Assembly: GCF_004321985.1 (NCBI RefSeq)
Contig: NZ_SCQN01000046.1
Span: 186,001-250,000, forward strand
Direction of reading: 5' to 3'
Length of the DNA: 64,000 nt
DNA from: Castellaniella sp.
GTDB lineage: Bacteria; Pseudomonadota; Gammaproteobacteria; Burkholderiales; Burkholderiaceae_B
Shown here: positions 45,546-58,878 of the stretch, one piece after another
How positions within the stretch are numbered: position 1 is the stretch's first letter
Layout: each line of letters starts with the position of its first letter
Made by a program: the position numbers and the translations under genes
The notes under the pieces: model-generated
The model's database searches: none
The model's input: the letters and a program-made list of their open reading frames with translations, nothing else
Told to the model about the DNA's origin: nothing

Positions 45546-46658
45546 ATGACCATGCAGCGTCGCGCGTTTTTGAAGAAGGCCGGTTTGGGTGCGGTGGCCG
45601 GCACAGCGACCATCGCAGCCCCGGCCGTCGCGCAGCCCAGCCCCCAGATCAACTGGAAGATGACTTCCACCTACGGACCTTCGGTGTCGCCGCTGTTTGG
45701 CGCGGCACAGCGATTCTGCACGATGGTCAAGGACCTGACCGACGGTAACTTCGATATCCGCCTGCATCCGGCCGGCGAACTGGTTCCGGCTCTCGGTGTG
45801 ATGGATGCCGTCAGCAACCGGGCGGTGGACTGCGGTCAGACGGTTTCCTCCTACTACTCCGACAAGGATCCGTCGTTCTGCTTCGACACGGCGATGCCGT
45901 TCGGCCTGAACACCCGCCAGATGAATGCCTGGATGTACCAGGGCGACGGCATGAAACTCATGCGCGCACTCTTTTCGCCGCACAACATCGTGAATTTCCC
46001 CTTCGGCAACACGGGCCCCCAAATGGGGGGCTGGTACCGCAAGGAAATCAAGACGGTCGACGATCTGAAGGGCCTGAAGATGCGCACGGCAGGCTTCGCC
46101 GGCGAAGTCCTGTCCCGCCTGGGAGTTGTCCCGCAGCAGCTCGCGCCGGGTGATATCTATCCTGCGCTGGAAAAGGGCACACTGGATGCGGTCGAATTCG
46201 TGGGCCCGGTCGATGACGAAAAGCTGGGCTTCCAGAAGGTCGCGAAATACTACTATTACCCGGGCTGGTGGGGAGGCGAGGGTCAGGTGTCGCTCTATGT
46301 GAACGACAAGGCCCATGCGGAATTGCCGAAATCCTACCAGGCCGTGATCGAGGTGGCAGCGCGTGCCGCGGGCGCAGGCGTGGTTGAAGATTATGATGCC
46401 CACAATCCAGAGGCTTTACGGCGTCTGTTGGCCGGCGGTGCGGTGCTGCGGATGTTCCCGCGCGACGTCATGGATGCGGCGTTCCAGGCGTCCGGGGTCG
46501 TATACAAGGAATTCAGCGACAAGAACGCGGGCTTCAGGAGCATCTATGCCAATTACAAGGCGTTCCGCGACAACATTGTGCCGTGGTTCCGGGTGGCTGA
46601 GAATGCGTTCGACAATTATCTGGGTGCAGCGGTGATGCGCCAGAGCGAGAAGAAGTAA
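45546..46658 (+). CDS. TRAP transporter substrate-binding protein (DctP family), Tat-signal
   Basis: MTMQRRAFLKKAGLGAVAGTATIAAPAVA twin-arginine signal; DctP-like mature domain. Confidence 0.9.
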   Translation: MTMQRRAFLKKAGLGAVAGTATIAAPAVAQPSPQINWKMTSTYGPSVSPLFGAAQRFCTMVKDLTDGNFDIRLHPAGELVPALGVMDAVSNRAVDCGQTVSSYYSDKDPSFCFDTAMPFGLNTRQMNAWMYQGDGMKLMRALFSPHNIVNFPFGNTGPQMGGWYRKEIKTVDDLKGLKMRTAGFAGEVLSRLGVVPQQLAPGDIYPALEKGTLDAVEFVGPVDDEKLGFQKVAKYYYYPGWWGGEGQVSLYVNDKAHAELPKSYQAVIEVAARAAGAGVVEDYDAHNPEALRRLLAGGAVLRMFPRDVMDAAFQASGVVYKEFSDKNAGFRSIYANYKAFRDNIVPWFRVAENAFDNYLGAAVMRQSEKK

Positions 46659-46659
46659 A

Positions 46660-46691
46660 CCGGACTGTTCTTTGGTCCGGGCCGTTTTTTT
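46660..46691 (+). terminator. Rho-independent terminator of the TRAP SBP gene
   Basis: ccggac (46660-46665) / gtccgg (46675-46680), then gccg and seven T (46685-46691). Confidence 0.7.
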
Positions 46692-46700
46692 GGTTGTTCG

Positions 46701-46900
46701 CGGCGCGCGGGGGTGATGATCCCTTGCGCTACGGCGAGCGGCCCTCCCGCTGGTCGGGCTATCCGGTCCTTCCTCGTCCAGCCCGGCGCCGCCATCCTTT
46801 CTCCTTGCGGTCGGGCGGATGTCAGCGAATTCCCCGGCTTCCCTTCTGAAGCCACCGGCGCTCGCCTACCCGCGCAAGGGATCATCACCCCCACGCGCCG
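46701..46900 (+). repeat. Repeat element copy A: 147-nt core (46728-46874) closed by 29-nt inverted arms
   Basis: Arms 46701-46729 and 46872-46900 are reverse complements with one mismatch (cggcgcgYgggggtgatgatcccttgcgc). Confidence 0.85.
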
Positions 46901-46912
46901 GTGCGTCTCAGT

Positions 46913-46931
46913 TAGGATGTCTCGCATCCTA
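46913..46931 (+). other. Perfect hairpin between repeat copies A and B
   Basis: taggatg (46913-46919) - tctcg - catccta (46925-46931). Confidence 0.6.
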
Positions 46932-46957
46932 CGTAGATGTCCGATGGGCTTAGGCGA

Positions 46958-47156
46958 GGGGCGGGAGGACTGCCGGGGGGCACGCGGGTAGGCTGGTGCC
47001 GGATGCTGACGAAGGGAGAGCGGGGGAATTCGGCGACGGACGACGACCGCAGGGAGAACGGCCGGCGACGCCCGCTCGGACGAGGCAGATCCGGGAAGTC
47101 CGACCAACGGGAGGGCCACCTGCCGTAGCGTGGTCCCCTGGCAGTCCTCCCGCCCC
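46958..47156 (-). repeat. Repeat element copy B, inverted relative to A: 147-nt core (46983-47129) closed by different inverted arms
   Basis: 17-nt perfect arm ggggcgggaggactgcc (46958-46974) / ggcagtcctcccgcccc (47140-47156) with imperfect inward extension; core is homologous to rc of copy A core. Confidence 0.85.
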
Positions 47157-47319: not shown

Positions 47320-47748
47320 ATGAAGACCTTTGTGGCCAAGCCGCATGAAGTCAAGCGTGACTGGTTTGTGATCGACGCCAAGGGCAAAATCCTCGGCCGT
47401 GTGGCCAGCGAAGTCGCACGCCGTTTGCGTGGCAAGCACAAACCCGAATTCACGCCGCACGTAGACACCGGCGATTACATCGTCGTCGTCAACGCATCAG
47501 AACTGGTTGTCTCCGGCGCCAAGGCGCAGGACAAACGCTACTATCGCCACTCCACCTACCCGGGTGGGATTTCCGAGACCAGCTTCCAGAAAATGCAGCA
47601 GCGATTCCCCGGACGCGCCCTGCAGAAGGCCGTCAAGGGCATGCTGCCCAAGGGCCCGCTGGGCTACGCCATGGCCAAGAAACTGAAGATCTACGCTGGT
47701 GCGGAACATCCGCATACCGCGCAGCAGCCGCAACCGCTGGAAATTTGA
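47320..47748 (+). CDS. rplM: 50S ribosomal protein L13
   Basis: [59 protein letters not shown]. Confidence 0.98.
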
Positions 47749-58787: not shown

Positions 58788-58878
58788 GGACAGGTGGCCG
58801 AGTGGTTGAAGGCGCACGCCTGGAAAGCGTGTATACGTTCATAGCGTATCAGGGGTTCGAATCCCCTCTTGTCCGCCA
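58788..58878 (+). tRNA. tRNA-Ser (anticodon GGA), CCA encoded
   Basis: ggacaggtggccgagtggttgaaggcgcacgcctGGAaagcgtgtatacgttcatagcgtatcaggggttcgaatcccctcttgtccgcca; long class II variable arm. Confidence 0.95.

Follow-up and report, generated by a model that had tools for sequence, protein, structure and literature searches.

Between a gene for a DctP-type solute-binding protein and a gene that we take, by recognition, to be rplM (ribosomal protein L13), a Castellaniella genome carries two mutually inverted sequences of about 200 nt each, here called copies A and B (Table 1). Both lie in the window, the whole 64,000-nucleotide stretch of DNA that was analysed. The question raised by this locus is what kind of element repeats its core and closes it, in each copy, with a stem of different letters. 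The earlier note had suggested either a structured RNA whose P1 stem is long or a MITE-like element selected for pairing. This description is supported by the further copies, the covariation and the arms reported below.

The repeat finder returned arms of 29 nt for copy A (one mismatch, 97% complementary, 142 nt between them) and of 22 nt for copy B (one mismatch, 95% complementary), the latter extending to a 28-pair helix if one gap is allowed. The arms of A and those of B are unrelated to each other in sequence. By BLAST, the two cores align in opposite orientation with 76% identity over 148 positions. The inverted, similar cores described previously are thus confirmed, while their identity had been put slightly low, at roughly 70% by eye. 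Compared with dinucleotide shuffles, the four strands of A and B fold with z = -9.3, -5.0, -8.4 and -7.4. These scores, along with relatives built in the same way at other places in the genome, place the structure of A and B far above chance. The sole Rfam match in the window is a tRNA gene at 58788-58875.

Table 1. Features of copies A and B and of the flanking genes (positions in the window).
Feature	Position	Strand	Basis
Upstream gene, TRAP-type DctP solute-binding protein	45546..46658	+	PF03480, 5.7e-54
Intrinsic terminator of the DctP gene, ahead of copy A	46660..46690	+	terminator search
Copy A, complete element	46701..46900	- (folding strand)	repeat finder, BLAST, core-model match
Copy A, 3' arm of closing stem P1	46701..46729	-	repeat finder
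Copy A, conserved core	46730..46871	-	R1 core-only model, 124.6 bits
Copy A, conserved internal-loop strand GGACGAGGAAG	46769..46779	-	core alignment
Copy A, conserved internal-loop strand GAAGGGA	46840..46846	-	invariant alignment columns
Copy A, 5' arm of closing stem P1	46872..46900	-	29 pairs, one G-U on minus strand
A-B spacer, 57 nt	46901..46957	none	sequence
Copy B, complete element	46958..47156	+ (folding strand)	repeat finder, BLAST, core-model match
Copy B, 5' arm of closing stem P1	46958..46979	+	22 nt ungapped; 28 pairs with one gap
Copy B, conserved core	46986..47127	+	R1 core-only model, 130.1 bits
Copy B, conserved internal-loop strand GAAGGGA	47011..47017	+	core alignment
Copy B, conserved internal-loop strand GGACGAGGCAG	47078..47088	+	core alignment
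Copy B, 3' arm of closing stem P1	47135..47156	+	repeat finder
Downstream gene, presumably rplM (ribosomal protein L13)	47320..47748	+	orthologous region in 10/10 Castellaniella genomes

A family of interspersed, intergenic repeats

BLAST identified nine family members in the Castellaniella genome itself. They are interspersed and intergenic, each has its own, mostly perfect inverted arms, and their inner loops adjoining the stem fall into two groups. A covariance model built from the core only, with the arms left out (R1), matched 39 of 201 sampled genomes of the home bacterial family (19 of 43 genera), several of them with at least 15 copies. Other carrier genera are Candidimonas, Pusillimonas, Pollutimonas, Paralcaligenes, Paenalcaligenes and Paracandidimonas. 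Elsewhere in the order the relatives are weaker and were found in 48 of 399 genomes from its other families. A further 320 genomes from the class gave no match, and no copy was found in plasmids or phages. The earlier note had predicted many intergenic copies and had staked its reading on copies in other genomes and a core distinct from the Rfam families. Indeed, copies are present in many related genomes, and the Rfam covariance models gave no relevant match to the element, even at E values up to 1-5. In the literature searched, by topic and by sequence string, the repeat family is not described. One pattern match, in a Planctomycetota bin (L161), was set aside as chance, as the covariance model gives it no support.

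Distant repeats from other families of the order (L111-L136) lack the long arms. They have an upper stem in common (GTCGGCG..TGTCTGAGC..GCGAGTT), end in GGTCGCCTTTTCTTTGGTTACTTTCTTTTGGCGAA, also occur as divergent pairs and match no Rfam family.

Of 34 cases of neighbouring copies at most 1.5 kb apart, 30 are divergent and none is convergent, with a few records entering the count twice. The usual unit of the element is a divergent pair, and A and B point away from each other. With gene orientations taken from a simple ORF caller, 58 of 104 gaps with the element lie between convergent genes, compared with 21 of 177 gaps without it (odds ratio 9.4, p=7e-15); for divergent genes the counts are 4 of 104 and 53 of 177. 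Where a single copy lies between tandem genes, neither strand is favoured relative to transcription (18 vs 17), which argues against an ordinary 3'-UTR role.

Some copies carry additional sequence at their ends. Of 132 copies, 29 have the tail motif WAGAAC no more than 25 nt beyond the 3' arm; beyond the 5' arm 2 of 132 have it, and among random stretches the rate is 0.7%. A short inverted end, AAAGACGCCG, was seen by eye in genome G073 only and is not general. In genome G157, copies L075-L089 are followed, outside the 3' arm, by a variable number of tandem repeats of about 19 nt (GACAACGTCATAAGAACCG); repeated tails resembling these are found in other genera too.

Pairing in the core and in the closing stem

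An alignment of 16 cores yielded five helices and an invariant purine-rich internal loop, with the conserved strands GAAGGGA and GKACGARG. Of the 33 core pairs, 22 show changes on both sides, and 97.5% of the core cells are paired, compared with 80% after shuffling and 33-47% when the partners are slid. A second set of 78 distinct core sequences, mostly different from the first, was 97.9% paired, with 305 doubly changed cells vs 96, although this alignment was fitted to the model and so leans towards it. This strong core covariation, repeated in the second set, agrees with the claim that the conserved interior belongs to a structured element.

Because the arms lie outside R1, they provide an independent test of the stem. 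Nearly all copies in the home family close with their own stem of 23-40 bp. A strong stem of its own (score at least 38, median length 31) is present in 120 of 160 distinct complete R1 matches, so that the self-complementarity on which the earlier note depended extends to the arms of other copies. The remaining matches are almost all from the L111-L136 group, with its common upper stem and different ends. Furthermore, A and B had been observed to have dissimilar but self-complementary arms, and 56 independent arm clusters, less than 70% alike, are of this kind.

Read on the folding strand, the arm pairs of these 56 clusters comprise 1651 Watson-Crick pairs, 29 G-U, 6 A-C and 25 others. Equal treatment of the two strands predicts as many G-U as A-C mismatches. 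The excess of G-U over A-C on one strand (p=6e-5) therefore points to the folding of one strand, as RNA or as single-stranded DNA. In copy A the stem mismatches are G-U when read on the minus strand, and in copy B when read on the plus strand, so that the folding strand is minus for A and plus for B; copy A had previously been printed the wrong way round. Compensatory changes across the fold together with strand-specific wobble are what is expected of a structured RNA.

Orthologous copies allow the changes themselves to be followed. In five close pairs from Castellaniella (L303/L306, L288/L289, L290/L291, L294/L295 and L304/L307) the arms have diverged and still pair. Among their arm changes, about 9 are compensatory on both sides and about 10 alter one side and keep the pair, as opposed to about 2 A-C and 2 other changes that break a pair. 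Covarying arms had been predicted, and the substitutions between orthologous copies do mostly keep pairing. Judging from these comparisons, the fold itself is being kept, with the letters of the stem varying between copies. Templated repair of imperfect palindromes may be a partial source of the double changes, but it does not predict the G-U bias.

The recently expanded genomes G157 and G073 hold nearly identical copies with common arms, wobble intermediates included. The arms are thus carried along by the element and do not derive from the target.

The same sites are occupied in up to five Castellaniella species. At two of them, locus delta (L294/L295) and locus alpha (L288 vs L303), the element lies in opposite orientation in different species, an outcome that recombination between the inverted arms would produce. 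Among ten Castellaniella species, the rplM gap holds the element only in the present genome and in C. caeni, which has a single copy with different arms; the empty sites of the other eight are too diverged for the junctions to be read. At locus eps, the orthologous copies L296 and L300 have the same arms but the upper stem-loop has been exchanged, which suggests that copies swap modules. The copy at locus alpha of C. defragrans (L310) retains its 5' arm and most of the core, with the 3' part replaced, and is apparently decayed.

Known repeat families and the search for a mobiliser

REP and BIME sequences are intergenic, often comprise two opposed palindromes, lie 3' of genes and between convergent genes, and are depleted before promoters (PMC3733652). 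The element resembles REP, BIME and REPIN sequences in being interspersed and intergenic, in forming opposed pairs and in lying downstream of genes. In contrast, a REP monomer is a palindrome of 20-40 bp tagged with GTAG, whereas the element is about 200 nt long with a three-way fold and an unconserved stem sequence, and GTAG adjoins the stem in part of the copies only. A further difference concerns the Y1 transposase (RAYT), which was rejected as the mobiliser. It is missing from the Castellaniella genome itself and from several of the most copy-rich genomes, and it is not associated with carriage of the element (7 of 39 carriers and 39 of 162 non-carriers of R1).

Other families were compared in the same way. 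BRE (bprJ) are multi-copy, GC-rich, intergenic repeats of 75-91 bp in tandem arrays, found in Alcaligenaceae and other beta-proteobacteria, with bprJ transcribed (Hot et al. 2011; PMC3110155). The element, at about 200 nt with divergent pairs and long unique arms, is set apart by that description. MITEs (Correia/NEMIS and similar) are likewise short, non-autonomous, multi-copy and intergenic, and are structured when transcribed, but no terminal inverted repeat general to the unit ends was seen for the element and no related transposase was found for it. Bor-1 and Bor-2, predicted structured intergenic repeats of Bordetella (Bor-2 of 167 nt in 17 copies; Cozzuto et al. 2008; PMC2267715), come from the same bacterial family as the host of the element. 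Compared by description, they are a possible partial prior record of it.

No mobilising enzyme was found near the copies, whose neighbours are ordinary genes, and no gene recurs among 93 flanking proteins. A reverse transcriptase was discarded as a common partner, since its occurrence is patchy and several carrier genomes lack an RVT_1 match; nor was an adjacent reverse transcriptase, as in retron ncRNAs, found among the neighbours scanned.

Two further observations concern sequences between or within copies. In the Castellaniella genome, two copies with very similar cores surround a lower-GC3 operon of ABC transporter, proline racemase and amidohydrolase genes (L090 2127-9196; G000:C57:295126-302195). 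At the orthologous sites of C. caeni and two other species there is a single copy and the operon is absent. This 7-kb cargo was rejected as an autonomous transposon, as no transposase is among its genes. Separately, two copies have their cores interrupted, each at a different point, by a hairpin element of 86 nt (L012, G000:C32:644-739; L036, G006:C27:319595-319679). This hairpin represents a distinct family, repeated in tandem, that has as many as 22 matches in a Castellaniella genome, and it would, by inference only, fit the description of BRE (PMC3110155).

Candidate readings of the element

We consider it probable (roughly two chances in three) that A and B are monomers of one divergent-pair unit, a non-autonomous, BIME-like element whose monomer folds as RNA or as single-stranded DNA. 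A single strand of the monomer would form a closing stem of 23-40 bp, an internal loop and three-way conserved helices with a purine-rich loop. A trans-acting factor would read this folded strand through the conserved core. The stem would only need to pair, leaving its letters free to drift with mutations compensated. Copies may persist 3' of genes as they do little harm there, or as a barrier between converging transcripts. The source of the constraint could be a host role or continued mobility.

Which of the two nucleic acids folds is the point on which the next readings part. The folding strand might be transcribed, by read-through or from its own promoter, as a putative host-functional sRNA of about 200 nt whose multiplication is secondary. 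We regard this as a serious possibility at somewhat less than even odds. The bias to G-U over A-C on one strand and the conserved unpaired purines are consistent with it, as are orthologous copies that keep pairing once fixed and that have long stayed in place, in as many as five species. An RNA that serves its host is harder to reconcile with single copies flipped at orthologous sites, with copy number and sites that differ between species, with the lack of strand preference relative to host transcription and with our failure to find a promoter-like site at the element.

That same indifference to host transcription is what would be expected if the folded strand were only the strand-specific substrate of a transposase, as REP hairpins are for RAYT, with mobility accounting for all of the constraint. 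Recent near-identical copies fit this reading as well, and the inverted pairs and the location at 3' ends resemble REP and BIME sequences (PMC3733652). We nevertheless find it rather unlikely, given the missing Y1 transposase described above and given that fixed orthologous copies keep pairing where selection for mobility should have ceased.

The strong enrichment in convergent gaps and the depletion in divergent ones would also follow if the host kept the palindromes as bidirectional terminators between convergent genes. This reading appears improbable: the upstream DctP gene is already terminated before copy A by its own intrinsic terminator, neither A nor B is followed by a U-tract, and a terminator has no need of a conserved internal loop and three-way fold. 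Finally, an inverted target duplication at each insertion, leaving a stem free of selection, would explain arms that are unrelated between copies of one genome and often perfect, but it is very improbable and was rejected on the common arms of the recently spread copies in G073 and G157, the compensated changes in orthologous arms and the one-strand bias of mismatches to G-U.

Returning to the BIME-like element of divergent pairs, a broader proposal is that the Burkholderiales harbour mobile structured RNAs that spread as divergent pairs through a non-RAYT enzyme, possibly one acting on RNA, and are long kept at the 3' ends of genes, with their stems continually rewritten under a strict demand for pairing. 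We put this forward as speculation, with odds well against it. In either case, the interspersed palindromic elements of bacteria gain an apparently undescribed family with a much larger and more elaborate fold than REP and no visible transposase. Since copies occupy the same sites in several species and some are flipped, it can be asked directly whether the element is a domesticated RNA, a selfish hairpin or a barrier. The occupied orthologous sites also let one ask which enzyme moves it, and the stems offer a natural test case for the speed of compensatory change.
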